From NCBI GenBank assembly GCA_000403335.2, contig KE159617.1:787757-851756 (forward strand): 64,000 bases of DNA. Direction: 5' to 3'. A model generated the notes under the pieces. That model searched no databases and was not told where the DNA came from. It saw nothing but the letters and a program-made list of their open reading frames with translations. The position numbers and the translations under genes are program-made. Source of the stretch: Lachnospiraceae bacterium MD335. GTDB taxonomy: Bacteria > Bacillota > Clostridia > Lachnospirales > Lachnospiraceae. Positions 42,293 to 64,000 of this stretch are shown piece by piece (positions within the stretch are counted from its first letter, which is position 1; each line of letters opens with the position of its first letter).

Positions 42293-42341
42293 ATGTTATA
42301 GTGTTGCCACCTTAGAGTATGACAAAATGGGAGTGACACAT

Positions 42342-44946: not shown

Positions 44947-45185
44947 TTTTTACAGACCTTTTCGTCAATGCCAATCAGATGAAAAAAGAATTGTCATTTA
45001 AGTTATAATATGATAGAATTATGACGATATACAATTATGTAGACATAAAAAGTTTAAATTTTGTTGCGATATAATTTTAAATGGTAAATATACCGGAACG
45101 GTTTATAGATTTACTATAAGGGGAGAATAATAAGAATTTTGAGATAAAGAAACGGCATGTATGGTGCCAATAAGTGGGGGAGCAT

Positions 45186-47732
45186 ATGAGGAAAGCGCAG
45201 AAGAGGCAGATTGATGAATTGGTAAAACAGCTTGAACAGGCACATGATCAGATAAAGGAATATGTTGATGAAAACAGTAATCAGTCTGCGATGGAGCTTT
45301 TGAGAGACTGTCAGAATGCCGGAATTTCCATAGGAACGCTTATTGAAAGTACAGAAGGTGAAGGACACCAAACCGTATCAGTTCTTGAGGAATATTGTGA
45401 ACTGGCATATCAGCTTCATGAAAACCTGGCAGAAGGAAAAGAAACGAATGCAAACAAAGTACATAAGATATTGAGGCAGAAACTGATCAAAGTGTCAAAC
45501 AGTATAAAACATGACATTCCGCTTAGAAAGGAAGCTGTTTTCCTTCCATATAAGGCTAGTATGTGGGACAGCTTAGAGAGCGTATGGCAGGCGGCTGACG
45601 CAGATCCCAATTGTGACACATATGTGATTCCGATTCCCTATTATGATAGAAATCCGGACGGTAGTTTCGGACAAATGCACTGTGAAGCAGACCAATACCC
45701 AGATTACGTTCCGGTTACGAAGTACGATGAGTTTGATTTTGGCATACATCATCCGGATATGATTTTTATACATAATCCTTATGATAATATGAACCTTGTT
45801 ACGAGCATTCATCCTTTTTTTTATTCGGATAAAATGAAAAAGGTTACGGATTGTCTTGTATATATTCCATACTTTGTTACATCGGGAGGGGTGTCGGAAT
45901 CAAAGGCAATGTGTCCGGCATATATGAATGCGGATTATATTGTGATACAGTCAGAAGAATATCGAAAATATTTTGATATGCGAATAAATGATAAAAAATT
46001 CCTTGTGTTTGGCTCACCAAAGTTTGATAGTGTAATAAATAAATGTAAAAACCCACCTGAACCGTCAATAGAATGGAAAGAGTCAATGGCGGGAAAAAAG
46101 ATATATTTTTATAATACCAGTATTGCAGGAATGTTAGCTAATACAGATATATTTCTAAAAAAGATGCGATACATATTTGATGTTTTTAAACAAAGGAAAG
46201 ATGCGTGTCTTCTGTGGCGTCCTCATCCATTGTTGGGAGCAACGTTTGATGCAATGAGAAAGCAATATAAGCCTCAGTTTGAGGCACTTAGGAAGGAATT
46301 TGAAGAAGAGCAAATAGGTATTTTTGATAATACAGTTGACATAGAACACACAATAGCGCTGTCTGATGCTTATATAGGCGATGCAGGGTCAAGTGTTATT
46401 GCTTTATTTGGCATTACAGGGAAGCCGCTGTTTATCCTTAGTAATTATATCCTTACGCCTCCGGAAAAGGATGACTGGCGGGGGACATGGATCTATTATG
46501 CGTTTGACATGTGGCCGAGTGATAAATATCTAATCACACAAAATAACCAATTATGGATATCGGAAGGTAATGAATATCATTATAGATTTTATATGAACTT
46601 GGAATGCCAGTATTCAGGCAATTACTATTATAAAAAGGCAGTAGAAATAAAGAGTAAGATCTATGTATTGCCATTTATTGCAAATGATCTTCTTATAATA
46701 GAAAATAAAAAAATCAGAAAAATAAATTTGAAACCGTATATTACACAGTGGTCTTTCCATGACTACTTCTATAATGAAAAATATATTTTTTTAATTCCGA
46801 ACCAATATCCGTATCTTGTCAGATTTGACATTGATACAGAGAAAATCAGCTATGTCGATGGAATAAGACAATTCAATACAAGGAATGTGAGAGGTGAATG
46901 GCTTTCGGGCGGTGTGGCGGTATATAAAAATGATTTGATCTTTGCGTCGCCAGTGGATAATCAATTTGTTTTTATGGACATGAATACTTTAAAAACCCGA
47001 ATAGTCAGCAGTAATTCAAAATGTAATGTTGGAGCAATGAAAATCGTTCCATATGGTGACGAATTGTGGATGTTGCCGATGAACGGTACGACAGTTATAT
47101 GTTGGAATATTAAAACAGGAAAGACAGAGGAATATAATGACGTACCAAAAGGATTTAAGTCGTTTAAATTGCCATATGAATTTGAATGTGATGAAAAACC
47201 ATTTGGAAATATTGCTGTTTCCAATGATAGTGGCAGGGAGAATATTATTTTATCGCCGCATTTGGGAAATATGTATTTGACGTTAGATAGGAAAACAGGA
47301 AAGATGGAAGAATGGAAAACGCCGGTTACATTCAAAAATTATGGTAAAAATGGATATTTTTTTACAAGCAGTATGGGGGGGTTTGTTACAAGGCAGATGC
47401 CGCAAGATGGTGCGGTTCATCAGATATTTGATGCCGCTGAGAGAAAATTATACGATGTCAATATTGATACTAAGGAGTTTAGAGAAGTAGAGATAGCATT
47501 TGATTATAGTGATGTGAGAGAGCATGAGTCAGGTTTTGCAGAGCAGACAGTACAAATGCCGTATGCTTTGTATGAGAGTGCATTCAATTCATTAAAAGAT
47601 TTTTTGGATAACAATATAACAGGAAATCCATTTAATCGGGAAAGACAGCTCAAAGCATTTGCTAAAATGAATGTCAATATGGATGGGACAAGTGGGAAAA
47701 AAGTCTATGACTATGTGAAAGGCAGGATTTAA
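45186..47732 (+). CDS. CDP-glycerol glycerophosphotransferase-like protein with C-terminal propeller-like domain
   Basis: The 848-residue protein opens with a helical region (residues 1-110), then a GT-B-type domain (about 110-440) with the TagB/TagF-like LLWRPHPL, SDAYIGDAGSSVIALFGITGKPLFIL and other motifs. It would transfer a phospho-alcohol from CDP to a glycan. From about residue 445 to 790 there are repeated strand-rich segments of 40-50 residues, for example LVRFDIDTEKISYVDGI and VFMDMNTLKTRIVSS, reminiscent of WD40 or kelch propellers. The acceptor is unknown. GGGGAG lies close upstream of ATG 45186. It starts the glycan island and shares one nucleotide with the next gene. Confidence 0.82.
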   Translation: MRKAQKRQIDELVKQLEQAHDQIKEYVDENSNQSAMELLRDCQNAGISIGTLIESTEGEGHQTVSVLEEYCELAYQLHENLAEGKETNANKVHKILRQKLIKVSNSIKHDIPLRKEAVFLPYKASMWDSLESVWQAADADPNCDTYVIPIPYYDRNPDGSFGQMHCEADQYPDYVPVTKYDEFDFGIHHPDMIFIHNPYDNMNLVTSIHPFFYSDKMKKVTDCLVYIPYFVTSGGVSESKAMCPAYMNADYIVIQSEEYRKYFDMRINDKKFLVFGSPKFDSVINKCKNPPEPSIEWKESMAGKKIYFYNTSIAGMLANTDIFLKKMRYIFDVFKQRKDACLLWRPHPLLGATFDAMRKQYKPQFEALRKEFEEEQIGIFDNTVDIEHTIALSDAYIGDAGSSVIALFGITGKPLFILSNYILTPPEKDDWRGTWIYYAFDMWPSDKYLITQNNQLWISEGNEYHYRFYMNLECQYSGNYYYKKAVEIKSKIYVLPFIANDLLIIENKKIRKINLKPYITQWSFHDYFYNEKYIFLIPNQYPYLVRFDIDTEKISYVDGIRQFNTRNVRGEWLSGGVAVYKNDLIFASPVDNQFVFMDMNTLKTRIVSSNSKCNVGAMKIVPYGDELWMLPMNGTTVICWNIKTGKTEEYNDVPKGFKSFKLPYEFECDEKPFGNIAVSNDSGRENIILSPHLGNMYLTLDRKTGKMEEWKTPVTFKNYGKNGYFFTSSMGGFVTRQMPQDGAVHQIFDAAERKLYDVNIDTKEFREVEIAFDYSDVREHESGFAEQTVQMPYALYESAFNSLKDFLDNNITGNPFNRERQLKAFAKMNVNMDGTSGKKVYDYVKGRI

Positions 47733-49072
47733 TGACAAAGGTAATTACATATGGAACATTTGACCTCTTTCACGAAGGTCACTATCGCCTTCTCCAAAGA
47801 GCAAAGGCACTCGGGGATTATCTGATTGTAGGTGTAACGACCGAGAAATATGATATGGAAAGAGGAAAGCTCAATGTTATTGATCCGTTGATGACACGTA
47901 TTGAGAATGTCAGGAAATCCGGTTTTGCAGATGAAATCATTATAGAAGAGGCAAGCGGCCAAAAAGTCAGCGATGTGCAGAAATACCATATTGATATTTT
48001 TACGGTTGGCTCTGACTGGGTTGGACAGTTTGATTATATGCAGAATTACTGCAAAGTAGTTTATATAGAGAGAACAAAAAATATATCCAGCACCATGCTG
48101 CGTGAACAGAATAAACAAATACAAAAAATCGGCATAATCGGAACAGGCAGAATTGCCAATCGCTTTGTGCCTGAGGTAAAACTTGTAAGCGGCATTAGCG
48201 TACAGGGGGTATACAATCCGCATACGGAGAGTGCAAAAAAGTTTTCACAAAATTGGGAGATTGATTTCTATGAAGAAATAGAAGACTTTTTTAAGGATGT
48301 TGATGTTGTGTATGTGGCGTCGCCGCATGAAACGCATTATGATTATGTGAAGGCGGCTTTAAAACATGGAAAACATGTGCTGTGTGAAAAACCGATGGTT
48401 TTAAAAAAAGCACAATCAGAGGAACTGTTTGCCTATGCGAAGGAATGCGGATTAATATTGTTTGAAGGAATAAAAACTGCGTATTGTCCGGGATTTGAAA
48501 AACTTTTGGGTATTGCCTGTACTGGCACAATTGGGCGCATTAAATATATAGATGCATGTTTTACAAAGTTAGAATCTCCTAATAATCGTGAGCTGACAGA
48601 TAAGCGTTATGGTGGAAGTTTTACAGAACTTGGCAGTTACTGCCTGCTTCCAATCATTAAGTTATTTGGTATTGACTATCAGGATATTCGTTTTGAGAGC
48701 ATACATGATGACAATGAACTTGATATTTTTACGAAGGTTTCGCTGACTTATCAAGAAGGGATTGCGGTTGCCACATGCGGTTTAGGTGTTAAAGCGGAAG
48801 GCCGATTGCTTATTGCGGGAACAAAGGGATATATTGTAGTGGAAGCGCCGTGGTGGAAAACGACTTGTTTTGAAGTTCATTATGAAGATCCGACACAGGT
48901 GGACAAGTATTCGGAAAGGTTTCTCGGAACGGGATTACGTTATGAAATTAAGGATTTTTTAAATATGATTAATGGAAATGATAAGAGTGATTTTAAACTG
49001 ACACGTGGGGAGACGGTCGCAATTGCAGAAATTGTGGAGAAGTTTTTAGCATATGAAGGAAGAGCAGTGTAA
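47732..49072 (+). CDS. Fusion: TagD-like cytidylyltransferase and Gfo/Idh/MocA oxidoreductase
   Basis: The 446-residue protein joins two enzymes. Residues 1 to about 130 are a glycerol-3-phosphate cytidylyltransferase-like domain: [14 protein letters not shown] is the CTP-binding HxGH motif, and [12 protein letters not shown] is the second signature. Residues about 133-446 are an NAD(P)-dependent oxidoreductase with GIIGTGRIA and the CEKPM motif. The pairing suggests one protein that makes a reduced alcohol phosphate and activates it with CTP, but the substrate is unknown. Its ATG overlaps the previous stop by one nucleotide, and it overlaps the LicD gene by 20 nt. Confidence 0.88.
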
Positions 49073-49916
49073 AAAGAATATCCGAGAAGAATTTGAATAT
49101 ACGCCGGAAAGAATTAGAAAAATCCAGCTAATAGAGCTTGAAATGCTTAAAGAAGCAGACAGGATTTGCAGGAAAAATAATATTCATTATGAGTTGGATG
49201 GAGGCACGCTTTTAGGAGCAGTCAGACATAAGGGTTTTATTCCGTGGGACGATGATATTGATATTAGAATGCTTCGAAAAGATTATGATAAGTTCTGCGA
49301 GATTTGCAAAAATGAGCTTGATTCAGAAAAATTTTTTCTGCAGACGTATCATACAGATCCTGGTTATCGATGGGGATATGCAAGGATTCTTAGAAAGGGC
49401 ACCTGTTTTAGCCGCAAAAATCAGGAAATGCTCACAATGAAAAGAGGTATCTTTATTGATATATTCCCTTGTGATAATATGCCCGAGTCGTTCGTATGGA
49501 AAGCGGTGTATAATTTTAGATGTTTTATGGCAAGAAAAATTGCATATTCTCCTGTAGGTGCGATACATGAACCAAACAAATTGAAAAGAATAGGATACTA
49601 TTTTCTGCGTCTTATTCCACGGGAAGCTTCCATTAGAGAATTTGACAGATTGGCATATCAGTATAATGATAAAAAAACAAGACTGATAAGAACGCCTGCA
49701 TGGGGTTATAAGCAGGAAGCGAAAGGGTATCTCAGACAATGGATGGATGAGTATTGTGAATTGGAATTTGAGGGGGAAAAGTTTTTGGCGCCGGCGGATT
49801 ATGACGGGTATTTAAGTTATTTGTTTGATAAGAACTATATGATACTGCCGCCGGAAAGCGAAAGGACTCCTAAACATACCAGTACGTATATTAGCTTTGG
49901 GGAAGAAGAAACATAA
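49053..49916 (+). CDS. LicD-family phospho-alcohol transferase
   Basis: The 287-residue protein is of the LicD family, nucleotidyltransferase-fold enzymes that transfer phosphocholine or a related group from a CDP donor to surface glycans. The signature [27 protein letters not shown] supplies the metal-binding DDDID; I quote it in parts: [12 protein letters not shown] and WDDDIDI. The C-terminal helical region is typical. It overlaps the upstream fusion gene by 20 nt and lies just before the nucleotidyltransferase-PLP fusion, which may make its donor. Confidence 0.93.
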
Positions 49917-49941
49917 AAAGATTTGTAAAGAGGTTAAAGGA

Positions 49942-51852
49942 ATGAATGAGCTGGAGTTTCAAAAACTAAGAAAAAAGTCAGAAGATGGTATGGTATTGTC
50001 GGATGAAGAATTGGAGTGCTTGAAACCATACAGAGTAGATAATGCTATTATTATGGCAGCAGGGTACAGTGCAAGATGTATGCCGCTTTCAAATGTGATG
50101 CCGAAAGGATTGTTTCGGGTAAAGGGAGAAATTCTGATAGAACGGGAGATAGAGCAGCTGTTGGCAGCAGGAATCAAAGAGATTATTGTTGTCACGGGAT
50201 TTATGCAAGAGAAATTTGCGTATCTTCAGGAGAAGTATGGCGTTGTGCTGGTGTATAACGAGGATTATGACAAATATAATAATATGTCTTCTTTGTATGC
50301 GGCGAAAGCATATATGAAGAATTCATATATTTTATGTTCTGACAATTACTATGAAGAAAATGTATTTCATCAATATGTTTATACATCTTGCTATTCATGT
50401 GTGTACTCAGAAGAATATTGTGACGAATTCTGTGTGACTTCGGTTGATAGTGAAGGATATATAGAAGAAATTCACAGAGGAGGAGCAAAGGCATGGTATA
50501 CGATTGGTGATGCCTTCTTTAATGTACAATTTTCAGAAAAGTTTTGTTATTTTATGGTGAAAGAATGGGATGACTTACAAACAAGAAATATGTTGATGGA
50601 TGATTTTCATATTAAACATATTAAGGATTTAAGATTAAAAAAGGTGGAACGCCCCGGACGTAGTATTCTTGAGTTTGACACCTTGGAGGAAATTAAAGAA
50701 TATGATCCTTGTTTTTCGCAGTTTATCAAAGAAAATTTAGACAGCGATAATGTAGTTATAAAAACATTTTCAAAATATGCAGATATAAAATCGTATCATT
50801 CTGTTCCGACAGAGCAGCTTAGCGGCAGGCTTCATTTGAATGAAAATCTGTTTGGTCCTTCGCCTAAGTGTTACGAGGCGCTCAAAGCCATTACACAGGA
50901 GGATTTGGCATTGTATGATTTGTCAAATAAGGATTATTTACTGGATGCAATATCTTCGTCAAGTGGTATATCGACAAACAATATATTTATGCATAATGGT
51001 TCGTCAGAGGTGATTAAATCAATATTCAGTATTCTTTTGAATGAAAGAGACACCGTATTGGTTTCTGCACCGGGGTGGAGTTATTATAAGAGTGTTGCAA
51101 ATGCAAAATTTGCAGATTGCATTACATACGAAGTGCAGGAATGTGAAGAAAGTTATGTATGCAATATTGAGGACTTAATGGAAAAGGCAAAAAAGTATCA
51201 TCCCAAAATCATTGTTATTACTTCACCGCATATGCCTACAGGTGCAAGAGTGGGATATAAGGATGTCGAGAAGGTAATAGCAGAAAATAAAGATTCTGTC
51301 ATTATGCTAGACCAGGCATATTGGGGATATGATGACAATACGAATGTATTCGAAAAGAAAATTATCACGAAGTACAGTAATGTGGTAATTACAAGAACCT
51401 TTTCAAAGTTTTATGGTTTAGCAAATATCCGCATCGGATACGGGCTGTGCAGTTATCCGCTGCGCAGGACAATTGGGTTGGACCTCCCACTGTTTAAAGT
51501 ATGCGGGATAAGCCGGAAAATAGCATATGAGGCAATTAAGGATACAGAATATTATCAAAAAATGAAAGAGGAAACGATTGCAGTGCGGGACTGGTTTATA
51601 GATGCATTGAATGCAATCAGTCAGGTTAAGGCATATGCTTCAATATCAAATTTTGTATTTATACGTTTGGAACATGCGGATGCAGACAAGGTTCGGGCAT
51701 ATATGGAAGAGAATAATATTTTAATCAGACTGTTTACAGATAAGGATGCACTCCGCTTAAGAATTACAATCGCACCAAAGGATGTTATGGAACGTGTATT
51801 GTTTCAATTAAAGCGGGCACTTGCAAATAGGAATGAACGGACAGTTCTATAA
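49942..51852 (+). CDS. Fusion: sugar/phosphocholine-type nucleotidyltransferase and HisC/CobD-like PLP enzyme
   Basis: The 636-residue protein has an N-terminal nucleotidyltransferase domain (about residues 33-235) with NAIIMAAGYSARCMPLS and a PKGLFRV motif, like LicC and PntC. From about residue 295 it has a fold-type I PLP enzyme with HLNENLFGPSP and the Schiff-base lysine K489 in TRTFSKFYGLANIRIGYG. That domain resembles HisC and the CobD threonine-phosphate decarboxylase. An attractive inference is that the PLP half makes an amino-alcohol phosphate, such as phosphoethanolamine from phosphoserine, which the other half couples to CMP for LicD. AAAGAGG lies 9 nt upstream of ATG 49942. Confidence 0.85.
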   Translation: MNELEFQKLRKKSEDGMVLSDEELECLKPYRVDNAIIMAAGYSARCMPLSNVMPKGLFRVKGEILIEREIEQLLAAGIKEIIVVTGFMQEKFAYLQEKYGVVLVYNEDYDKYNNMSSLYAAKAYMKNSYILCSDNYYEENVFHQYVYTSCYSCVYSEEYCDEFCVTSVDSEGYIEEIHRGGAKAWYTIGDAFFNVQFSEKFCYFMVKEWDDLQTRNMLMDDFHIKHIKDLRLKKVERPGRSILEFDTLEEIKEYDPCFSQFIKENLDSDNVVIKTFSKYADIKSYHSVPTEQLSGRLHLNENLFGPSPKCYEALKAITQEDLALYDLSNKDYLLDAISSSSGISTNNIFMHNGSSEVIKSIFSILLNERDTVLVSAPGWSYYKSVANAKFADCITYEVQECEESYVCNIEDLMEKAKKYHPKIIVITSPHMPTGARVGYKDVEKVIAENKDSVIMLDQAYWGYDDNTNVFEKKIITKYSNVVITRTFSKFYGLANIRIGYGLCSYPLRRTIGLDLPLFKVCGISRKIAYEAIKDTEYYQKMKEETIAVRDWFIDALNAISQVKAYASISNFVFIRLEHADADKVRAYMEENNILIRLFTDKDALRLRITIAPKDVMERVLFQLKRALANRNERTVL

Positions 51853-51857
51853 AATTG

Positions 51858-52919
51858 ATGAAGGGAAGAGATGTAAAAAGCATGCTAAAGGTATTGGATA
51901 CATTTAGGGAAAAACTGGATGAAGTGATGTGTAAAACAATAGGAAAAAGAGTTGTATTGTATGGATACAATCGTACGGGACAATTTTTGGAATGGTATGC
52001 AGAGTATTATCACAGTATAAAAATAGATTACATCATTACGATGGACTGGTCAGCAGGTGTGCCGAGAAATTTTCCGCTTTTTTGTGATACATTATTTGAT
52101 TTCGGATATCAGGATGTAAAGGATTCCGTTGTATGGTTAGCATTGCCTAAAGATGAAGCGATCGTAAGAAAGCTGGAACAAGCGGGCTATGTGGAAGGAG
52201 AAACATGGTTTCCTTTTTTGGATATTGTGTATGGAGATGGTTATATCATTCCTGAACATGATGAGGATGATGTGTTTTTAAGAAGAAAATCGGGAATTAG
52301 GGATATTCAGTTTATGGAATGGTTGGAATATATTTATGATTGTAATTATGTTGAACGTATTTCCAATCAATATTTTGAGGGTGATGGAAAAGAGGAACGA
52401 ATCAGCTATGTAATTTCAACACAAAAAGAGATATTTCCGATTTTGGAAAAGTGTCATTGCATTCCTCAGGAAAACGACGCAATTTTCGACTTTGGATGCG
52501 GAAAAGGGGGAGCAATGCTTGCGTTTTTAGATTATGGTTTTCGAAAGGTTGCAGGAGTAGAGTATGAGAAGAAAATATTTGATATTATGCTCTCTAATTT
52601 TGCAAAACTTGGAATTGAAGTTAATGGAGAGCAGGTGTCATGTATCTGTGGTGATGCAGCAGATGTAAAGAGCGAATTGGATGAATACAATTGGTTCTAT
52701 TATTTTGAACCGTTTAAAAGGACATTGTTTATTAAAACAATAGAAAATATAACCGACAGTATAAAACGTAAACCACGCAAGGTTTATATTATTAATATTA
52801 ATCCGGTATATTATGATGAAATTATAAAAAGTGGATTTTTCATTTTGACAAATCAATTCACGATAGCCACGAGACAAAAAGTGGTAGATGTTTTTGTCTC
52901 AAAAAATGAGTTTCAATAA
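51858..52919 (+). CDS. SAM-dependent methyltransferase with N-terminal nucleotide-binding-like domain
   Basis: The 353-residue protein has an N-terminal small Rossmann-like domain (RVVLYGYNRTGQFLEWY) of the sort often found in glycan-locus enzymes. A C-terminal class I methyltransferase domain follows from about residue 185, with the SAM motif FDFGCGKGGAM at about residue 210 and the acidic GVEYEKK. The substrate is unknown; it may methylate a sugar or the amino-alcohol of the island. Start is uncertain: ATG 51858 or ATG 51882, neither with a strong ribosome-binding site. Confidence 0.82.
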   Translation: MKGRDVKSMLKVLDTFREKLDEVMCKTIGKRVVLYGYNRTGQFLEWYAEYYHSIKIDYIITMDWSAGVPRNFPLFCDTLFDFGYQDVKDSVVWLALPKDEAIVRKLEQAGYVEGETWFPFLDIVYGDGYIIPEHDEDDVFLRRKSGIRDIQFMEWLEYIYDCNYVERISNQYFEGDGKEERISYVISTQKEIFPILEKCHCIPQENDAIFDFGCGKGGAMLAFLDYGFRKVAGVEYEKKIFDIMLSNFAKLGIEVNGEQVSCICGDAADVKSELDEYNWFYYFEPFKRTLFIKTIENITDSIKRKPRKVYIININPVYYDEIIKSGFFILTNQFTIATRQKVVDVFVSKNEFQ

Positions 52920-52933
52920 AAGAGGAATAAACT

Positions 52934-54151
52934 ATGCAGGATTACAAAATTACAGTTGTAATACCTATTTATAATGAGGAGACCTATTTGGATCAATGTG
53001 TTTCAAGTGTATGTAATCAGACATATAAAAATCTTGAAATTATTTTAGTTGATGACGGCTCCCAAAAAGAGTGTGCGGTTCAATGCGATAAGTACGCCTT
53101 AAATGACGAGCGAATAAAAGTAATCCATAAAAAAAACGGAGGATTATTAAGAGCAAGAAGAACGGGGATACTTGCTGCAACTGGAGATTATATCTGCTTT
53201 GTAGATGCGGATGATTGGATTGAAGCGCAACTATGTGCAGAATATGCAAAAAAAATAACATATGAACCAGATTTTGTGGCGAGTTCAAATTATTATAGAA
53301 ATTATGCTGACGGTAGTTTTGTGGAGGTATTTCAAAATACAGTTGACGGTTATTATGGAAAAGAATCATTTGAAAAAATGGTATTAAATAAATATATTAC
53401 ACTGGACCATTTTTATGATACCCGATTTCCGCTTACGATGTGCCTGTATCTGTTTCGAACAGATATAGCCCGAAAAATTACAGAAAAATGGGACAGCAGG
53501 ATAAAGATATCTGAAGATTATGCTTTTGTAACATTGTGTCTGTTAAATGCGGCAACGGCTGCCGTCACTCCGTATAGAGGGTATCATTACAGATGCAATA
53601 GAAATTCAATGTGTTATACGATAGAAAATGCAAAAGATGCTTACAAGGATGTCCATGATTTGATTTGTAAAGAAATAGCTCAATCCGAATATAACAAAGA
53701 AATACTGTATAAGAAAAATAATTATGCACTATATCAAACCTTGATGATTATGGATTATGCGCCGTTATTAGAATTGTCTGATCAGTATTTGTTTCCGTAT
53801 ACTTGTGTAACAAGGGGAAGCAGGATTGCCCTGTATGGAATGGGTTCAACAGGTGTACAAATGTATCGGGCGTTAGCAGGGAATAACCATTATGAAATTG
53901 TCGCTTTGATTGATAAAAATTATAAGGCGTTTGAAGGAAGCGAATATAATGTTATGGGACCTGATGTACTCAATATGATTGATTATGATTTTGTGGTTAT
54001 TTCCATTTTGTATGCAAATGTAAGGGAAGAGGCAAAAAAAGAATTGATGGCATTAGGAGTTGAAGAGAAAAAAATAGCGGAGCCTGATGAGATTGTATTA
54101 AGTGTGAATTATGTATATGAAAAGGAAGGATTTGTGACATGGAAAAGATAA
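52934..54151 (+). CDS. GT2 glycosyltransferase with C-terminal Rossmann-like domain
   Basis: The 405-residue protein begins with a GT-A family 2 domain: TVVIPIYNEETYLDQCVSSV, VDDGS, and the DxD-type FVDADDWI. At about residue 295 it continues into a separate nucleotide-binding-like domain (SRIALYGMGSTGVQMYRAL, followed by VALIDKNYKAF). No membrane segments are visible, so it is a cytosolic or peripheral transferase. The sugar donor and acceptor are unknown. It overlaps the following methyltransferase gene by 13 nt, whose own N-terminus carries a related domain. Confidence 0.9.
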   Translation: MQDYKITVVIPIYNEETYLDQCVSSVCNQTYKNLEIILVDDGSQKECAVQCDKYALNDERIKVIHKKNGGLLRARRTGILAATGDYICFVDADDWIEAQLCAEYAKKITYEPDFVASSNYYRNYADGSFVEVFQNTVDGYYGKESFEKMVLNKYITLDHFYDTRFPLTMCLYLFRTDIARKITEKWDSRIKISEDYAFVTLCLLNAATAAVTPYRGYHYRCNRNSMCYTIENAKDAYKDVHDLICKEIAQSEYNKEILYKKNNYALYQTLMIMDYAPLLELSDQYLFPYTCVTRGSRIALYGMGSTGVQMYRALAGNNHYEIVALIDKNYKAFEGSEYNVMGPDVLNMIDYDFVVISILYANVREEAKKELMALGVEEKKIAEPDEIVLSVNYVYEKEGFVTWKR

Positions 54152-55062: not shown

Positions 55063-55080
55063 ATGGATGGTGTAAACAAT

Positions 55081-56133: not shown

Positions 56134-56145
56134 GAGAGGCAGAAA

Positions 56146-57009
56146 ATGATATATGTATCATCAGCGTGTATAAAAGAACGGAGTATTGCAGAAGTAATTA
56201 AGCGCTTTGCACAATGCGGTATTAAAAATATCGAATTGTCAGGCGGAACAGATTATTATAAAAGCATTGAGCATGATTTGGTTGAATTGGCAGATTTATA
56301 CGGTCTTACTTATGCGTGTCATGCGTATTTTCCACCGCCTAAAGTTCCTTTTGTAGTGAATCTTGCTTCCTGTAATGATGAAATATATCAGCAATCAATA
56401 GCGCATTATGTTCAATGTATTGAGATGCTAAAGCGCATTGGCTGCCATGTTTTGTCTGTTCATGCAGGATTTTTAGTGGAAGTTCGAGCGGATGAGATAG
56501 GAAAAGTATTAAGCAGCAAAACTATATATGATGAGGGTAAAGCATACGACAGGTTTTGCTCTGCGTATCAACAGATAGAAAGACAATGTGCTTTATGTGA
56601 TATAGAGTTGTATTTAGAAAACAACGTTCTTAGTATGAAAAACTATATAAGTTTTGGAAATCAAAATTATATGATGATGACTGATTATATGTCCATTATG
56701 AAAATGAAAAAGCAGATGGATTTTAAGCTTCTTTTAGATTTGGGGCATTTACATGTTTCTTCGCATACATTAGGACTTGATTATGCAAAGGAGTGTGCAT
56801 TGCTTAGAGACCACAGTCATTGGTTTCACCTTAGTGAGAACGATGGAAGCTCTGATGAACACAGCCCCTTAAGAGAGGGGAGCAGAATCATGGAGGAATT
56901 TTGTAAAATTAACGATCAATGTAATAATATTACATTAGAGACGATAGGAAATATGAGAGAAATTTTAACAAGTATTAACTTGTTGAAAAGTTTACAAGGT
57001 AGTATTTGA
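56146..57009 (+). CDS. Sugar phosphate isomerase/epimerase family protein (AP-endonuclease-2 fold)
   Basis: The 287-residue protein looks like a xylose-isomerase-like TIM barrel. Metal-binding candidates are the histidine of HAYFPPP, VHAGF, the glutamate of ELYLENNV, DLGHLHVSS and ETIGN. Members of this superfamily isomerise or epimerise sugars, and are frequently found in nonulosonate loci. Its specific reaction here is not known. It could stand in for the missing epimerase of the pathway, which is inference. It starts 12 nt after neuB-like gene. Confidence 0.85.
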   Translation: MIYVSSACIKERSIAEVIKRFAQCGIKNIELSGGTDYYKSIEHDLVELADLYGLTYACHAYFPPPKVPFVVNLASCNDEIYQQSIAHYVQCIEMLKRIGCHVLSVHAGFLVEVRADEIGKVLSSKTIYDEGKAYDRFCSAYQQIERQCALCDIELYLENNVLSMKNYISFGNQNYMMMTDYMSIMKMKKQMDFKLLLDLGHLHVSSHTLGLDYAKECALLRDHSHWFHLSENDGSSDEHSPLREGSRIMEEFCKINDQCNNITLETIGNMREILTSINLLKSLQGSI

Positions 57010-57037
57010 CGGGGGTATGCAATAGGAAGGGCAGCGT

Positions 57038-58456
57038 ATGGAAATGAATAAAATGATATGTAGTCAGACAGCAACAATTAGGGATGCGATGTTGTGTATT
57101 GATGGAAACACAAAAGGAACGGCTTTTATAACAGATGAAGAGGGAAAGCTTGTCGGGGTTGTGACAGATGGTGATATAAGGCGAGCGTTGATGGAGGGGT
57201 ATGGGTTAAATAATTCTGTTAAGACGTGCATGAATAAGGAGTTTGTTTATGCGTTGGTCAGTGATAATATTAAAGATATAACAGAAAAATTTAATTTAGC
57301 TGTAAAAATTATACCAATTGTAGATGAAGAAATGCATCCGCTCGATTTTGTTGAATATAACGAAAATATACATATACCGCTGGCACAGCCGCAATTGTGT
57401 GGTAATGAATACAAATACTTAATGGATGCATTTTTCTCTACTTGGATATCAAGTACAGGGAAATATGTAACGCAGTTTGAAGAAAAGTTTTCAAAGTACT
57501 GTGGGGTTCAGTACGGAATTGCAACATCGAATGGCACAACTGCGCTGCATTTGGCTTTGGCAGCTTTAGGAATTGGTGCAGGTGATGAAGTGATAGTGCC
57601 AGATATCACATTTGCGGCTACAATCAATGCGGTGCTTTATACAGGGGCAACACCTGTGATTGTAGATATTGAAAAAGATAGTTGGTGCATTAATCCAGAT
57701 AAGATAGAAAAAGCAATTACATTAAATACGAAGGTAATTATACCCGTACATATATACGGGCAGCCGTGTGATATGGGGCGCATCTGTGATATTGCAAGAA
57801 ATCATAATTTATATATAGTAGAGGATTGTGCAGAAGCGCATGGTGCGGAATGGAAACATAAAAAAGTAGGTTCTTTTGGAATAATATCCTGCTTTTCATT
57901 TTTTGGAAACAAGGTGATTACTACTGGGGAAGGTGGAATGTGCGTTACCAACAACAGAGAATTAAATGATAGAATGCTTGTATTACGCGATCATGGGATG
58001 AGCAGAGAAAGAAAATATTATCATGAAGTGGTAGGCTTCAACTACCGAATGACAAATATGCAGGCAGCTATAGGAGTGGCTCAGTTAGAAAATATTGATG
58101 AGATTTTGGAATGGCGTCAGTCCCTTGAGGAAAAATATAGAAGCATATTTTCAAAAATTTTAGAATTACAGATGCAAAAAAATGATTTTAAAGATAGAAA
58201 AAAGATAGCATGGCTTGTTTCTGTGCTGGTCGATCCTAATAAAAGGGATGCAGTACTACAAAATCTTAAGGAAAATAATATTGATGCAAGACCATTTTTT
58301 ATTCCGCTAAGTGAAATGGAAATTTATAAAAAGTATGCACAAGACTGTACAGTAAGCAGACAGATTTCAAGAATGGGGTTGAATTTGCCTACAACCTGTG
58401 AGATTGATGATAAAAAAATTGAACGTATGGCACAAGTGGTTGAGTCAATATTATAA
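57038..58456 (+). CDS. Fusion: CBS-domain pair and DegT/DnrJ/EryC1 sugar aminotransferase
   Basis: The 472-residue protein has two N-terminal CBS motifs (about residues 1-115; GTAFITDEEGKLVGVVTDGDIRRAL is quoted as VGVVTDGDIRRAL) joined to a DegT-type PLP aminotransferase from about residue 120. The Schiff-base lysine is K292 in FFGNKVITTGEGG. DegT enzymes aminate keto-sugars. CBS pairs normally sit on the GlcN-1-phosphate guanylyltransferase (PtmE/LegX type) of legionaminate loci, so finding them on the aminotransferase is unusual. CBS domains may bind nucleotide and regulate it. AGGAAGG lies 7 nt upstream of the start. Confidence 0.9.
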   Translation: MEMNKMICSQTATIRDAMLCIDGNTKGTAFITDEEGKLVGVVTDGDIRRALMEGYGLNNSVKTCMNKEFVYALVSDNIKDITEKFNLAVKIIPIVDEEMHPLDFVEYNENIHIPLAQPQLCGNEYKYLMDAFFSTWISSTGKYVTQFEEKFSKYCGVQYGIATSNGTTALHLALAALGIGAGDEVIVPDITFAATINAVLYTGATPVIVDIEKDSWCINPDKIEKAITLNTKVIIPVHIYGQPCDMGRICDIARNHNLYIVEDCAEAHGAEWKHKKVGSFGIISCFSFFGNKVITTGEGGMCVTNNRELNDRMLVLRDHGMSRERKYYHEVVGFNYRMTNMQAAIGVAQLENIDEILEWRQSLEEKYRSIFSKILELQMQKNDFKDRKKIAWLVSVLVDPNKRDAVLQNLKENNIDARPFFIPLSEMEIYKKYAQDCTVSRQISRMGLNLPTTCEIDDKKIERMAQVVESIL

Positions 58457-58472
58457 GAGGAGAAAACATAAC

Positions 58473-58882
58473 ATGTGTGGAGTTATGAAAACATGCCCGA
58501 TATGTGGGGGAGAAGTATGCTTGGCACATAAGGGAACCAGAGATGATGAATTGACAGATGTTTATTGAAGTATGTATCAGAAATTGCAAATTCGTGCAAG
58601 GGGGTCGAATTTGGAAAGCGTGAACGGCAGCATGTGAATGACACGAGAATTGTTTGTGCGAAAAATATTGAAGAGTATAATGAAAAGTTTGATATTTTAT
58701 TATCAGGACAGGTACAAAGATATTCGATAGCAAATCATTTGCTGTGGTTAGCCAAGGGAATACCGGGAGGTCATGACAAATGGAAGTTTATAGATACAAT
58801 GGATCTTAACAACGCATATTATGAAAAACTGAAAGAACTGGAGATGCGTGCTACCTTGTTTTTTATATTAAAGAAAAAATAA
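58473..58882 (+). pseudogene. Deleted relic of a class I methyltransferase gene
   Basis: A good ribosome-binding site (AAGAGGAG) precedes ATG 58473, which encodes 31 residues including a zinc ribbon start (CPICGGEVC) before a stop at 58566-58568. A second frame from 58565 encodes 105 residues ending FFILKKK, with the segment DILLSGQVQRYSIANHLLWLAKG that looks like the C-terminal part of the same sort of protein. The SAM-binding middle is absent. A deletion of much of the gene, with a frame change, explains the arrangement better than two genes. It is the only clearly decayed gene of the island. Confidence 0.65.
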
Positions 58883-58906
58883 TTGAAATGGGATACAAGG
58901 ATGAAA

Positions 58907-59533
58907 ATGAAATTGATTATATTTGGATGTGGAGGTCATGCGAGAAGTGTTGCAAATGCAATTATAAGTAATGGGGATGCCTTGGATATACTTTTTGCAG
59001 ACAACAATGCAAAACCTGACGAAATAATTATGGGATTTCCGGTCATATATGATTATGACTTGAGTGGAGATTGGAAATATATAATAGCTGTTGGTGATAA
59101 TAATAAAAGAAGAGAAATATATGATGATCTGCAAAACAAGAAAAAGGGAAAATGCATCTCGGTTGTGTCTCAAATGGCATATATCGGGGAAGAAACAGAA
59201 ATAGGTGTTGGAACATTTATTGCTCCATATGCTTATGTGGGACCTCAGGCAGAGATAGGTGTTAATACAATTATTAATACAGGAAGCATTATAGAGCATG
59301 AAGCGGCTATTGGAAATCATACACATATTGCACCGCGTGCGACAATCTGTGGGCGTTCCAAAATTGGAAATAATGTATTTTGCGGGGCTGGAAGCACAAT
59401 AATTGATAATATAAGTATCTGTGACGATGTTATTGTCGGTGCAGGTGCAGTTGTGTTAGAAGATATTACTGAAAAGGGAACATATGCAGGCATCCCGGCG
59501 CGTAGAGTGAAAAGGATACCTATACTAAAGTAA
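58907..59533 (+). CDS. Sialic-acid-type acetyltransferase (NeuD/PglD family)
   Basis: The 208-residue protein has an N-terminal Rossmann-like domain (LIIFGCGGHARSVANAI) and a left-handed beta-helix from about residue 85 (IGVGTFIAPYAYVGPQAEIGVNTII, quoted in part). The catalytic histidine is probably in IIEHEA and a second in NHTHIAPRA. It would acetylate an amino group of the nonulosonate precursor or product. ATG 58907 is preferred: AAGG lies 6 nt upstream. It follows the methyltransferase relic. Confidence 0.92.
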   Translation: MKLIIFGCGGHARSVANAIISNGDALDILFADNNAKPDEIIMGFPVIYDYDLSGDWKYIIAVGDNNKRREIYDDLQNKKKGKCISVVSQMAYIGEETEIGVGTFIAPYAYVGPQAEIGVNTIINTGSIIEHEAAIGNHTHIAPRATICGRSKIGNNVFCGAGSTIIDNISICDDVIVGAGAVVLEDITEKGTYAGIPARRVKRIPILK

Positions 59534-59581
59534 GTATAGGGTTTAAAGTAATTTGCATTTTGTGTAAGGATGGAGTGTTAT

Positions 59582-60568
59582 ATGAATATATGTGTTATTG
59601 GATTAGGGTCAATGGGAAAAAGAAGGATAAGGCTCTTACAAAAACTTGATTGCCGTTTTGTTATCATTGGAATTGACAGTAATGCAGAAAGAGCGAGGGC
59701 TGTTGCCGACGAGTATGGAATAGATTGTTACTCTGCATTTTCAGATGTTCATGAAAAGTTTGATTGTGTATTTGTCTGTACATCGCCACAGGCACATTCG
59801 TTAATTATTAAAAAATGCCTTGAGAAGAATCTGAATGTGTTTACAGAAATAAATCTGATTAGTGACTTGTATGATGAGAACATTAGATTGGCAAAAAAGA
59901 AAGGAAAAGTGCTATTTCTGTCATCCACTCCGTTATACAAAGAAGAAATGCAGATAATTGACAAGAAAATAAAACAAAATGGTAAAACATGTGCATATCA
60001 ATATCATGTAGGTCAATATTTGCCGGACTGGCATCCTTGGGATAAGTTGAATGAATTCTTTGTAAGTAACAGGAATACAAACGGATGCAGGGAGTTTTTG
60101 GCAATTGAATTGCCTTGGATACAAGAAACATTTGGGAAAATAAAAGCAGTACATGTAATAAAAACAAATCTGACTGATTTGGATCTGGAATTTCCGGACA
60201 CTTACTTTATTCAAATAGAACATGAAAAAGGAAACATTGGAAATTTAACGATAGATGTTGTGAGCAGACAAGCAGTCAGAAGAATGGAGATTTTTAACGA
60301 AGATTTATATATCAGATGGGATGGAACACCGGATTCGCTGTATGAAAAAGATATACCATCAGGTGAATTGAAGCAGATATCAGCAGGTAGATATATTCAT
60401 GAAAATGGATACAATGCGTCGATTAATGAATACGCGTACATGAAAGAAATAGAAGCATTTTTAGAAGCAATAAAAGGAACGGAACCTTTATACAGTTTTG
60501 AAAAGGATAAAGAGACATTAAAAATTATTGATGAAATTGAGAGGAATACATGTGATGAGCAAAAATGA
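59582..60568 (+). CDS. Gfo/Idh/MocA oxidoreductase, first of two paralogues
   Basis: The 328-residue NAD(P)-dependent oxidoreductase has an N-terminal Rossmann fold with VIGLGSMGKRRIRLL, and the catalytic-region segment YQYHVGQYLPDWHPWDKLNEF. The same two regions recur in the gene at 62585. The usual EKP motif is replaced by FTEINLIS. It probably oxidises or reduces a sugar intermediate of the pathway. GGATGGAG lies upstream of ATG 59582. It overlaps the next gene by 14 nt. Confidence 0.9.
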   Translation: MNICVIGLGSMGKRRIRLLQKLDCRFVIIGIDSNAERARAVADEYGIDCYSAFSDVHEKFDCVFVCTSPQAHSLIIKKCLEKNLNVFTEINLISDLYDENIRLAKKKGKVLFLSSTPLYKEEMQIIDKKIKQNGKTCAYQYHVGQYLPDWHPWDKLNEFFVSNRNTNGCREFLAIELPWIQETFGKIKAVHVIKTNLTDLDLEFPDTYFIQIEHEKGNIGNLTIDVVSRQAVRRMEIFNEDLYIRWDGTPDSLYEKDIPSGELKQISAGRYIHENGYNASINEYAYMKEIEAFLEAIKGTEPLYSFEKDKETLKIIDEIERNTCDEQK

Positions 60569-61856
60569 AGAATATGGAGAAAAGGCGCATTTATGGATAC
60601 CAGCCGGAGCACATACATATAGCAGAACGGATGAGGTATTTCCGGGAAATGCTCCAAAGGTCATAGAACGCAGTAAAGGAGTATACACATGGGATGTGGA
60701 TGGAAATGAGTATATTGATTACGGAATGGCCTGCAGATCGGTGACTGTTGGATATGATTATGACAGAATTTCAGATGCTGCGATAAAGCAGATACATAAT
60801 GGAAATACAGCAACTAAAGCATCAAAAATTGAGATTGAGGCTGCAGAAGCAATGTGTAATTTGTTTCCTTGGGTTGATATGGTGAAATTTGCTAAGAACG
60901 GATCAACCGTAACGTCTGCGGCAACAAAGCTTGCGAGAGCATATACAGGGAGAAAATATATTGCACGGTGCAAAGAACATGCGTTCTTTTCTTACGATGA
61001 TTGGTTTATTGGCAGTACGGTTATGAATGCAGGGGTACCACAGGAGATTCAGGATCTGACATTGCAGTTCAATTTTAATGATATTGCTTCTGTAAAAGCT
61101 TTATTTGAAGAATACAAGGGTGAGATTGCGACACTGATTATGGAGCCATGCGATACACAAGAGCCTGAAAACAATTTTTTACAGGAGGTAGGAAAACTTT
61201 GTAAGGAATACGGTGTTGTTTATATTTTGGATGAGATGATAACAGGGTTTCGATGGGATATACAGGGCGCTTGCAAATATTATGGCGTAGAACCGGATTT
61301 AGTTACTTTTGGAAAGGGGATGGCAAATGGATTTTCAGTTGCTGCATTGGGCGGAAAACGAGAAATTATGGATTTGGGCGGACTGACGCCTGGAAGAGAA
61401 CGGGTGTTTCTTATTTCCACGACGCACGGGGCAGAAATGAGTAGTTTGGGAGCACTTGTGGAAACAATTAACGTATATAAGGAATTAAATGTCACAGACC
61501 ATATATGGGATATGGGAAGAAGGCTTGTGAAAGGTCTGAATGAGATAGCAAAGGAACATTCATTACAGGACTATTTCTATTTGGAAGGAGCGCAATGTTC
61601 CCCGAATCTTGTAGTATGCGGTAAAGATGCAAAACCATCGTTTGAATATCGTACGGTATTTCTACAGGAGATGCTTAAAGCAGGGATACTTATGCCTTAC
61701 ATTGCAATTGCATATGAACATACAAAAAACGAGATAGACAGAACTTTAGAGGCAGCTGAAAAAGCAATGAAAATATATAAAGACGCGTTAAATGCTGATG
61801 TGGGACGTTTTATTGAAGGAAACATCATTAAGCCGGTGTTTCGGAAGTATAATTAA
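60555..61856 (+). CDS. Class III aminotransferase (glutamate-1-semialdehyde aminomutase-like)
   Basis: The 433-residue PLP protein resembles GSA aminomutases, with the Schiff-base lysine K254 in FGKGMANGFS, the DEMITGFRW motif and a FAKNGSTVT phosphate region. Its place inside a nonulosonate cluster indicates a sugar- rather than tetrapyrrole-related function; proteins of this type in flagellin and LPS loci transfer amino groups to sugars. ATG 60555 has GAGGAA about 10 nt upstream and overlaps the oxidoreductase gene. Together with the CBS-DegT protein, the island has two aminotransferases of different fold class. Confidence 0.9.
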   Translation: MSKNEEYGEKAHLWIPAGAHTYSRTDEVFPGNAPKVIERSKGVYTWDVDGNEYIDYGMACRSVTVGYDYDRISDAAIKQIHNGNTATKASKIEIEAAEAMCNLFPWVDMVKFAKNGSTVTSAATKLARAYTGRKYIARCKEHAFFSYDDWFIGSTVMNAGVPQEIQDLTLQFNFNDIASVKALFEEYKGEIATLIMEPCDTQEPENNFLQEVGKLCKEYGVVYILDEMITGFRWDIQGACKYYGVEPDLVTFGKGMANGFSVAALGGKREIMDLGGLTPGRERVFLISTTHGAEMSSLGALVETINVYKELNVTDHIWDMGRRLVKGLNEIAKEHSLQDYFYLEGAQCSPNLVVCGKDAKPSFEYRTVFLQEMLKAGILMPYIAIAYEHTKNEIDRTLEAAEKAMKIYKDALNADVGRFIEGNIIKPVFRKYN

Positions 61857-61871
61857 GAAGGAAGAATGGTT

Positions 61872-62588
61872 ATGTATAAAGGGTACAAAACTTTGGCGGT
61901 TGTCACGGCAAGAGGGGGGTCCAAGGGCCTTTTAGGGAAAAATGTTAAGGTTTTGAATGGGAAACCGTTAATTGCGTGGACGCTTGAACAAGTGAAAAAC
62001 AGTCAATTTATAGATAAGTTAGTTGTTTCGACAGACAGTGGTGAGATTGCTAAAGTATGTGAAGCATATGGTGTAAAAGTTCCCCAATTGCGACCGGATT
62101 ATTTAGCTACAGATAATGCCTCATCAATGGATGTGTTGGAGTATACGATTCAAAACGAAGAGAACGATGGCTGCGTGTATGATTATATCATGCTGTTGGA
62201 GCCTACTTCACCTTTGCGTAAGAAGGGGGACCTTGATAATATTATCAAGTTAGCAGGAGATAATCCGACCAGGGATGGAGTGATCTCAGTTGGAGAGGTA
62301 CAACTGGAGCATCCGATGATCGTTAAAAAAATTGCGGAAAATGGCGCAATTATTCCATATCTTTCAGAGAATATAAAGATATATCAAAGACAGCAGTATG
62401 ACGAAGCCTTGTTTCCATATGGTGTCGGTTATTTAATTAAAAATTCCGCGTTTAGAAAGGCGCATACAATTTATACAGATAATGTGATCCCTTATTTTAT
62501 AGAACGATGGCAGAATTATGAAATAGATGATATTTATGATTTTAAATGCGTTGAAACAATTATGCAGATGGAGATGGATAAAATATGA
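61872..62588 (+). CDS. Acylneuraminate cytidylyltransferase (CMP-nonulosonate synthetase, NeuA-like)
   Basis: The 238-residue enzyme activates the nonulosonic acid with CTP to give the CMP-sugar used by glycosyltransferases. The N-terminal CTP-binding motif ARGGSKGLLGKNVK is clear, followed by VVSTDSGEIAKVC, YIMLLEPTSPLR and a C-terminal dimerisation region. It resembles PtmB/LegF-type CMP-legionaminate synthetases as much as NeuA. ATG 61872 has GAAGG 8 nt upstream; an ATG 6 nt earlier is in frame. It overlaps the next gene by 4 nt (ATGA). Confidence 0.94.
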   Translation: MYKGYKTLAVVTARGGSKGLLGKNVKVLNGKPLIAWTLEQVKNSQFIDKLVVSTDSGEIAKVCEAYGVKVPQLRPDYLATDNASSMDVLEYTIQNEENDGCVYDYIMLLEPTSPLRKKGDLDNIIKLAGDNPTRDGVISVGEVQLEHPMIVKKIAENGAIIPYLSENIKIYQRQQYDEALFPYGVGYLIKNSAFRKAHTIYTDNVIPYFIERWQNYEIDDIYDFKCVETIMQMEMDKI

Positions 62589-63586
62589 AAAATTATTTAA
62601 TAATCGGATTAGGGTCTATGGGGAAAAGAAGGATTAGGTGTTTAAAAGCCTTGGGAATAGATTCACAAAATATTTATGGAATAGATAAGAGAGAAGACAG
62701 ACGTATTGAATCAAAAACAAAATATGGGATAAATGTGGCTGAAGAAGAAAGTGATATAGATTTCAATGGAATAAATGCAGTTATTGTTTCGCTGCCTCCG
62801 GACAAACACTATGAAGGAGTCGAAATTGCATTCAGATATAAAAAGCCGGTTTTTGTTGAAGCCAGCGTTGTGTTGGCAGATGCTAAAAAGATTGAAAATA
62901 ACAATATAGACCATATATTTGTTGCACCTTCCTGTACATTTTTGTTTCATCCGGTATTAAAAGAAGTTAAAAAAATTGTAGCATCTAAAATGTATGGAAA
63001 AGTCTGTAATTTTTCCTATCATAGTGGACAGTATCTTTTGGATTGGCATCCTTGGGAAGAAGTAAATGCATTTTATGTAAGTAACAGGATGACTGGAGGT
63101 GCAAGGGAGATTGTGCCTTTTGAGTTGACATGGATTGTTGATGTAATGGGATATCCAAAAGAAGTAAAAGGATATTTTAAGAAAACAAGAGACCTAGGAT
63201 GTGACATCGAGGACAGTTATGCATGTCTGTTGAATTATGAGGACATGGTGGGAAATTTAATGGTAGATGTTATAGGGCGGAATGCTTTGAGAAATTTAGT
63301 TATTAATTTTGAAGAAGCGCAGCTTCAGTGGCGTTGTGATGCGGACAGTCTTGAAGTTTATGAAGCCCAGACAGGCACATGGAGGTCGATTGTACTGGAA
63401 AATATGATACACGAAGAAGGATACAGTAAAACAATTAATGAAAATATGTATATAGACGAGATAAATGCTTTTTTACAAGGGATACAGAATAGACAGTGTT
63501 ACCCAAATACGATAGAGAAAGATATTCATGTATTGGAGCTGCTTGAGCAGATAGAAAATTCCGATGGTGGATTTTACAGAAAGTAA
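62585..63586 (+). CDS. Gfo/Idh/MocA oxidoreductase, second paralogue
   Basis: The 333-residue protein is similar to the one at 59582: LIIGLGSMGKRRIRCL near the N-terminus, and YHSGQYLLDWHPWEEVNAF with FYVSNRMTGGAREIVPFEL. A domain substitution in the EKP position (FVEASVV) is again seen. The two paralogues may act on successive or related sugar intermediates, or form a heteromer. Its start overlaps the CMP-sugar synthetase stop by 4 nt, indicating translational coupling. Confidence 0.9.
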   Translation: MKNYLIIGLGSMGKRRIRCLKALGIDSQNIYGIDKREDRRIESKTKYGINVAEEESDIDFNGINAVIVSLPPDKHYEGVEIAFRYKKPVFVEASVVLADAKKIENNNIDHIFVAPSCTFLFHPVLKEVKKIVASKMYGKVCNFSYHSGQYLLDWHPWEEVNAFYVSNRMTGGAREIVPFELTWIVDVMGYPKEVKGYFKKTRDLGCDIEDSYACLLNYEDMVGNLMVDVIGRNALRNLVINFEEAQLQWRCDADSLEVYEAQTGTWRSIVLENMIHEEGYSKTINENMYIDEINAFLQGIQNRQCYPNTIEKDIHVLELLEQIENSDGGFYRK

Positions 63587-63618
63587 AAGAAAACACGAGA
63601 AATCTTAGGAGATATCAC

Positions 63619-64000
63619 ATGCAATCTATAAATATGCACTTACTGTGTTGTGATTCAGATAAGGAATTAATGCAATTAAAAAGTATTTGCAAGTCAGATT
63701 ATATAGTGGCAACAGGTAAATATTCATTTTACAGAAAAATAAAAGAAGCGGAAAAACAAGTTATTTTTTTGGAGTCAGATGAGATTAATCCTTATGAAAC
63801 CGTATGGGACATTTTGGATCAGATTAATCATGTTGTTGACGATAAGGAGAATGCATATAAGTATACGAGCTTGTTTGACTTTTCATATGATATTGAGGGA
63901 GGATTTCCGACAAGAGTCGCTTGCATGATAAATAATCTAAAGCTTATTCATCATATTGTTGAAAATTATTCGGTTGACAATATTTTCATTTTTGATAATG
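63619..64000 (+). CDS. Unidentified glycan-island protein, N-terminal part (runs off the window)
   Basis: An open frame from ATG 63619 runs to the window edge, 127 codons without a stop. It is preceded by AGGAG at 63607-63611 and lies 32 nt after the oxidoreductase gene. The peptide contains SDYIVATGKYSFYRKI, QVIFLESDEINPYETV and a later VACMINNLKLIHHIVENY. I do not recognise the family; position suggests a transferase that uses the activated nonulosonate. This is inference. Confidence 0.75.
   Translation, partial: MQSINMHLLCCDSDKELMQLKSICKSDYIVATGKYSFYRKIKEAEKQVIFLESDEINPYETVWDILDQINHVVDDKENAYKYTSLFDFSYDIEGGFPTRVACMINNLKLIHHIVENYSVDNIFIFDN

Follow-up and report, generated by a model that had tools for sequence, protein, structure and literature searches.

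The closest described relatives of the locus treated here, a glycan gene island of Lachnospiraceae bacterium MD335 that begins within a 64,000-nucleotide stretch of contig KE159617.1 (the window; G000:C1:787757-851756) and continues past its end, are phosphodiester-bearing flagellin glycans and legionaminate pathways. As far as the available portions of the published accounts go, type A flagellin of Clostridioides difficile carries a sugar with a phosphodiester-linked substituent (PMC4441256, PMC10714395), and this glycan needs a LicC-like protein and a TagF/epimerase-like protein (PMC10714395). The type A cluster (CD0240-CD0244) is described there as small, lying beside flagellar genes and lacking nonulosonate chemistry; it combines LicC-like activation of a cytidine diphosphate (CDP) donor, proposed to be CDP-threonine, with a methyltransferase and the phosphatase-like CD0241 (PMC4441256, PMC10714395). 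CD0244 resembles both glycerophosphotransferases and uridine diphosphate N-acetylglucosamine (UDP-GlcNAc) 2-epimerases (PMC10714395, PMC4441256). The b-type glycan of Pseudomonas aeruginosa PAO1, encoded by four genes in the flagellar locus (PA1088-PA1091), is a single deoxyhexose with phosphodiester-linked N,N-dimethylthreonine, for which a CDP donor is proposed and no nonulosonate appears in the available part of the account (PMC11833859). CDP-linked donors are thus proposals in both lines of work (PMC10714395, PMC11833859). The legionaminate pathways of Campylobacter jejuni and Bacillus subtilis (sps), in similarly partial accounts, employ a LegC/SpsC-type aminotransferase, a LegH-type acetyltransferase, a NeuB-type synthase and a cytidylyltransferase (PMC7439481; PMC13317340).

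In the MD335 island, TagB/F-like, TagD-like, LicD and LicC-like genes share one plus-strand block with a NeuB/NeuA/NeuD set. The initial annotation had read these genes from the letters of the window, and domain, profile and solved-structure matches now confirm them; the three fusion proteins it had proposed (TagD with Gfo/Idh, LicC with a HisC/CobD-like enzyme, CBS with DegT) are real. Our leading but tentative reading is a horizontally acquired cytoplasmic protein-glycosylation island, most likely for flagellin. It likely uses CDP donors to put phosphodiester-linked groups on a protein glycan that contains a nonulosonate, in the way proposed for the type A glycan of C. difficile and the b-type glycan of P. 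aeruginosa.

From the gene content we infer the following substrates and order of steps. The aminotransferase I10, the acetyltransferase I12, the synthase I08 and the cytidylyltransferase I15 (Table 1), together with a 4,6-dehydratase encoded elsewhere, would produce a legionaminate-like nonulosonate activated with cytidine monophosphate (CMP). Two oxidoreductases and an aminotransferase (I13, I16 and I14) would tailor it, and glycosyltransferases would build the chain. I02 would make a polyol phosphate by reducing a sugar phosphate, then couple the product to cytidine triphosphate (CTP); I04 would convert a phospho-amino acid or keto phosphate to a phospho-amino-alcohol and then couple that to CTP. 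I01, I03 and I17 would transfer the phospho-alcohol and phospho-amine groups onto the glycan, which I05, I07 and methyltransferases farther downstream may methylate, conceivably on nitrogen.

The island resembles the type A cluster, as far as that is described, in predicted CDP-donor activation by a LicC-like domain (in I04), in a methyltransferase and in a protein (I01) with the same double fold likeness as CD0244, the LicC-like and TagF/epimerase-like proteins of the two being likened by description, not by sequence. It differs in the fusion of LicC to a pyridoxal phosphate (PLP) enzyme, in the additional presence of LicD and a TagD-Gfo fusion, and in its remoteness from flagellins. No HAD-type family occurs among the Pfam matches of the 26 open reading frames (ORFs) of the island, and because it lacks both a phosphatase of the CD0241 type and a place in the flagellar locus, the island is not a member of the type A group. 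The wholly undescribed pathway suggested in the initial annotation is a weaker claim than stated, since work on the type A glycan of C. difficile and the b-type glycan of P. aeruginosa has already proposed the logic of CDP activation and phosphotransfer, in the portions available (PMC10714395, PMC11833859). The exact chemistry of this island looks undescribed, although related blocks exist elsewhere. A literature search combining CDP-glycerol glycerophosphotransferase with flagellin glycosylation returned nothing, a weak negative since PMC4441256 is worded otherwise, and one combining LicD with flagellin returned only titles on other topics, judged by titles and the starts of abstracts.

Proposed flagellin link and alternative products

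A glycoprotein is a more likely product than a free polymer because Pfam-type domain searches of the 26 island ORFs recognised no family of flippases, polymerases or exporters, no canonical PF04464 protein was found in the genome at E 1e-30, and relatives often lie beside flagellins. Of the two products named in the initial annotation, the glycoprotein therefore gains and the free surface polymer becomes less likely. Relatives of I01 occur in 56 of 299 same-family genomes, and 9 of their 77 listed places are no more than 10 kb from a flagellin, among the flagellin matches listed, compared with 0 of 96 control LicC/HisC places in the same genomes (Fisher p 5e-4). Flagellar genes are present in 13 of 80 I02 loci, and 7 of these 13 are among the 33 loci with I01. 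In two Paenibacillus loci (L098, L106) the module comes after fliD and fliS, and the Paenibacillus strains with the core module in this position are P. jilunlii CGMCC 1.10239 and P. oryzae 1DrF-4. Further, genome G626 has a relative of the aminotransferase I14, of the glutamate-1-semialdehyde aminotransferase (GSA)-like type, within a flagellar cluster, where a PF01973 protein (L178:5405-7219, minus strand), which we take to be of the Maf family, adjoins a flagellin, a Polysacc_synt_2 dehydratase and the GSA-like aminotransferase. In G252, another carrier of a GSA-like I14 relative, the distance from this gene to a flagellin is about 18.5 kb.

Several observations weigh against this reading. 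The count of 9 in 77 rests on distances read by hand, as do the control distances, both sets being taken from the flagellin matches listed only, and the count of 13 in 80 comes without a control set, with no flagellar gene seen in the other 67 stretches. In this genome, which has 12 flagellin-domain matches, the nearest lies about 240 kb from the island, no Maf-type (PF01973) transferase was found, and the main flagellin region with glycosyltransferase family 2 (GT2) genes gives no best hits to CDP or nonulosonate genes. The sole other full-length I04 relative found (in G029) sits in a capsule-like locus, and UDP-GlcNAc 2-epimerases make up most of the top 15 structural matches of I01. A scan for promoter-like and terminator-like sites lends the idea of one operon no support: 81 were found versus 82.3 expected, and 9 versus 8.7, respectively. 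At such chance levels the scan is uninformative on transcription units. In a flagellar locus at G000:C1:365-392 kb (L171, L172), GT2 genes are scattered between several flagellin genes.

The alternative that survives best, though we consider it unlikely, is a cell-surface polysaccharide, either capsule or wall polymer, with a nonulosonate repeat unit carrying phospho-alcohol or phospho-amine substituents and with its flippase or transporter encoded elsewhere. LicD, TagD and TagF-like families are classically tied to surface polymers, the G029 locus combines an I04-type fusion, LicD and TagD-like genes with a probable flippase (by eye), and the distance of the island from flagellins fits as well; the unrecognised export functions, the lack of a PF04464 protein at the above threshold and the flagellin proximity of I01 relatives speak against it. 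A wall teichoic acid locus was rejected, as no canonical TagF (PF04464) was found in the genome at E 1e-30 and I17 matches this family weakly (1.1e-6). That the island glycosylates not flagellin but some other protein of the surface or secreted fraction, such as an S-layer protein or adhesin, is improbable: it would follow the same gene logic and agree with the distance from flagellins and with an island around C14:392 kb that holds an I01 relative and no flagellar genes in the stretch read, but the neighbourhood of the island treated here showed no gene for a candidate acceptor, and the relatives point to flagellin.

Least probable of all is that two unrelated loci without a shared product were joined by chance in this strain, a possibility that the initial annotation had named as one that would overturn its reading, and which is disfavoured because the pairing recurs elsewhere. 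In four other genomes, nonulosonate-type genes lie near genes of the TagF-like, LicD or TagD-Gfo kind, the sets being more or less complete. G273 (contig C51) has I01, I02 and LicD, followed by NeuB (33%), GSA-like (30%) and NeuA-like (29%) genes. G252 (C39) has TagF-like and LicD matches, NeuC, NeuB (45%), NeuA (54%) and a GSA-like gene, with no TagD-Gfo within the stretch; L151 has I02, LicD, HisC-like, dehydratase-like, GSA-like and DegT genes, with no NeuB within the stretch; and L136 (Anoxynatronum buryatiense) has I02, NeuB (35%) and a short NeuA match. In favour of a chance join, the pairing is not general, as NeuB is a best hit in 1 and a GSA-like gene in 1 of the 80 I02 loci. The G+C content is uniform over both parts, at 36.1% (45186-55062) and 36.7% (55063-63586), with 34.9% beyond the window, compared with 47.3% in window positions 1-45000 and 47.0% just and 46.5% farther downstream. 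The placement of both chemistries in one island thus stands, and the island is a foreign-looking, mobile-looking composite glycan block that is recurrent in kind.

Predicted CDP-donor enzymes and the TagB/F-like transferase

Haemophilus influenzae Bcs1/Acs1 is a bifunctional CDP-ribitol synthase in which one polypeptide reduces a sugar phosphate and attaches CDP. I02 would follow the same two-job logic with unrelated parts, a TagD-type cytidylyltransferase (match to 1coz, 1e-30) and a Gfo/Idh reductase (match to 3e9m, 6.6e-32). A search of GTDB genomes gave at least 578 relatives among at least 589 pattern-matching stretches, and our counts refer to the best 80 loci, whose stretches often end at contig ends. 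Both halves lie in a single ORF in 75 of these. By best hit, 46 of the loci have LicD, 33 have I01 and 22 have a glycerophosphodiester phosphodiesterase (Pfam-confirmed in one case), an enzyme that was not found in the window island. The fusion occurs in Lachnospiraceae, Paenibacillus, Selenomonadaceae, Bacteroidales, Akkermansia, Fibrobacter and Actinobacteria records. In L073 and L077, PdxA-like genes (by eye) lie beside a second, unfused TagD and LicD, which suggests another CDP-linked small molecule.

The LicC-like domain of I04 matches 1jyk (2.7e-34). At E 1e-30, I04 finds matches in 84 of 299 same-family genomes, and both domains were matched only in this genome and G029, the C-terminal partners of other long frames having been examined in part. 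The PLP domain, which may be a decarboxylase or a transaminase, scores below cut-off with both the HisC model (202.6 bits, cut-off 276.55) and the CobD model (121 bits, cut-off 290.55). Among its solved HisC-like relatives is 6oux, whose title reads 'Threonine phosphate decarboxylase-like enzyme'. Cj1436/Cj1437 and SMUL_1544 are serine-phosphate decarboxylases or related enzymes. In L098, L099 and L106, a LicC-like protein with another PLP partner directly follows LicD in an I01-I02-LicD module (L098:12274-14580, L099:7969-10284, L106:12292-14595); this partner resembles serine hydroxymethyltransferase (SHMT), by Pfam in L098 and by eye in L099 and L106. The PLP partner seems exchangeable between lineages, and it may be this position in the fusion that determines the phospho-amine to be activated. 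PDB entry 6pd1, presumably PntC fused to aminoethylphosphonate (AEP) transaminase, is likewise a fusion of a nucleotidyltransferase and a PLP enzyme, but its match to I04 is confined to the nucleotidyl domain, the PLP partner being HisC/CobD-like here and SHMT-like in L098.

We read I01 as a CDP-alcohol phosphotransferase, a predicted function based on fold and profile. No Pfam family matches the window protein itself, and PF04464 is matched by 2 of 22 family members (best 6.7e-7). The motifs GSPKxD, RPHPL and SDAYIGDxxxS are conserved in an alignment of 22 rows, made up of the window protein and 21 of 33 relatives, some 5'-trimmed to the aligned start. Compared with ten TagF-type proteins, chosen by motif from 12 loci (the two without the motif were dropped), the I01 profile gave E 3.1e-5 and a probability of 73%; the controls NeuC (E 0.21) and GT4 (E 0.6) were single sequences and not profiles, so that the test was uneven. 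An AlphaFold2 model from the same alignment has a mean predicted local distance difference test score (pLDDT) of 87.7. In Foldseek, its GT-B part matches a UDP-GlcNAc 2-epimerase at rank 1 and TagF at rank 2 (3.8e-9), and its C-terminal part matches beta-propellers such as virginiamycin B lyase. We do not favour I01 as a UDP-GlcNAc 2-epimerase in place of NeuC, as its conserved motifs and profile are TagF-like and many of the loci in which it is found have no best hit to NeuB. A second I01 relative in this genome (an 806-residue ORF at G000:C14:392409, L081) opens another glycan island, which has GT11 and small methyltransferase-like relatives of the genes at the end of the window island.

Nonulosonate genes

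I08 passes the NnaB model TIGR03569 (411.9 bits, cut-off 399.65) and I12 the NeuD model TIGR03570 (195.5 bits, cut-off 160.8). I10 reaches 364 bits with a LegC-family model, below its cut-off of 420, and I15 matches the CMP-Neu5Ac synthetase 6ifd (3.4e-33) and falls below the cut-off of the PseF model. Compared with the legionaminate pathways, the island has a GSA-like aminotransferase, two Gfo/Idh enzymes and a TIM barrel as extras, and no 4,6-dehydratase; PF02719 proteins are encoded elsewhere in the genome, best at C14:97969 (a 655-residue frame) and at C14:79458. By eye, C14 also carries a second, pseudaminate-like locus. I14 is rare, being found at E 1e-100 in 2 of 298 other same-family genomes and 1 of 390 genomes of a class sample that overlaps the former.

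In this 97.84% complete genome, no NeuC/WecB/LegG 2-epimerase was found above cut-off (PF02350, best 21.8 bits versus 30.6), which leaves one nonulosonate step, hydrolysis and 2-epimerisation, without an assigned gene. Our guess at a candidate is I09, by its position between NeuB and the aminotransferase; no close solved relative of it was found (best E 0.0042). A more specific form of the proposed glycan, which we regard as doubtful, would be nonulosonate-based with two CDP-derived phosphodiester substituents, a polyol from TagD-Gfo and an amino-alcohol from LicC-PLP, and would be made without NeuC, an unrelated enzyme such as I09 performing the 2-epimerisation.

Gene order, surroundings and implications

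The island spans 45174-74223 (about 29 kb, plus strand) of the 4.96-Mb genome (19 contigs) and extends about 10.2 kb beyond the window end. All coordinates in Table 1 are window positions. The part beyond was read from L003, a stretch of this contig whose positions become window positions on adding 61243. One of the 26 ORFs, of 105 residues, is doubtful. The description of the genes as mostly overlapping was overstated: 6 of 25 junctions overlap, all of them among the 15 junctions inside the window, and the largest intergenic gap is 162 nt.

Table 1. Genes of the island that begin within the window.
Gene	Predicted product	Position	Strand	Remarks
I01	TagB/F-like phosphotransferase	45174..47732	+	helical N-terminal region, GT-B domain, C-terminal beta-propeller
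I02	TagD-like cytidylyltransferase + Gfo/Idh oxidoreductase fusion, predicted CDP-polyol synthase	47732..49072	+	
I03	LicD phosphotransferase	49053..49916	+	PF04991 1.2e-45
I04	LicC-like cytidylyltransferase + HisC/CobD-like PLP fusion, predicted CDP-amino-alcohol synthase	49897..51852	+	
I05	N-terminal domain + methyltransferase-like domain	51855..52919	+	weak, 1.5e-4, below cut-off
I06	GT2 glycosyltransferase	52934..54151	+	domain match
I07	methyltransferase, Rossmann-like N-terminal domain	54139..55062	+	domain match
I08	NeuB-type nonulosonate synthase	55063..56133	+	TIGR03569 411.9 bits
I09	xylose-isomerase-like TIM barrel, orphan sugar isomerase/epimerase	56146..57009	+	PF01261 9.8e-17
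I10	CBS + DegT (LegC/PseC-type) aminotransferase fusion	57038..58456	+	domain match
I11	105-residue ORF, possibly no gene	58565..58882	+	no family
I12	NeuD/PglD-type acetyltransferase	58883..59533	+	TIGR03570 above cut-off
I13	Gfo/Idh oxidoreductase	59570..60568	+	domain match
I14	GSA-like class III aminotransferase (PRK06209 type)	60528..61856	+	
I15	NeuA/PseF-like cytidylyltransferase	61866..62588	+	
I16	Gfo/Idh oxidoreductase	62585..63586	+	35% identity to I13
I17	second TagF-like protein, 608 residues	63619..65445, past window end at 64000	+	PF04464 1.1e-6

Relatives of I05 adjoin I01 and I02 relatives in L077 (51%) and L124 (48%). I11, between the DegT fusion and NeuD, has no relatives at E 0.01 among the fetched loci and is perhaps a remnant or no gene. 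Extension past 64 kb, which the initial annotation had proposed in search of transferase and flippase genes, yielded the second TagF-like protein and GT4, GT11 and GT2 transferases and no recognised flippase; FkbM and other methyltransferases, a second DegT protein and a WbuC-like cupin scoring below cut-off also lie there. The gene that lies upstream of the island encodes both a glutamine amidotransferase and a phosphoribosyltransferase domain; downstream are a macAB-like exporter and mraZ/mraW (by-eye reading). An SMI1/KNR4 (SUKH-type) protein is encoded upstream at 42327-43001.

If the proposed function is correct, the phosphodiester decoration of C. difficile and P. aeruginosa flagellins would be one case of a broader chemistry with interchangeable CDP-donor modules. 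Since the TagD-Gfo fusion occurs in many lineages, the assay of one such enzyme would serve to annotate a large number of genomes. Proteins that join LicC to a HisC/CobD-like or SHMT-like enzyme offer directly testable donors, and the missing NeuC step presents a testable gap in nonulosonate synthesis.

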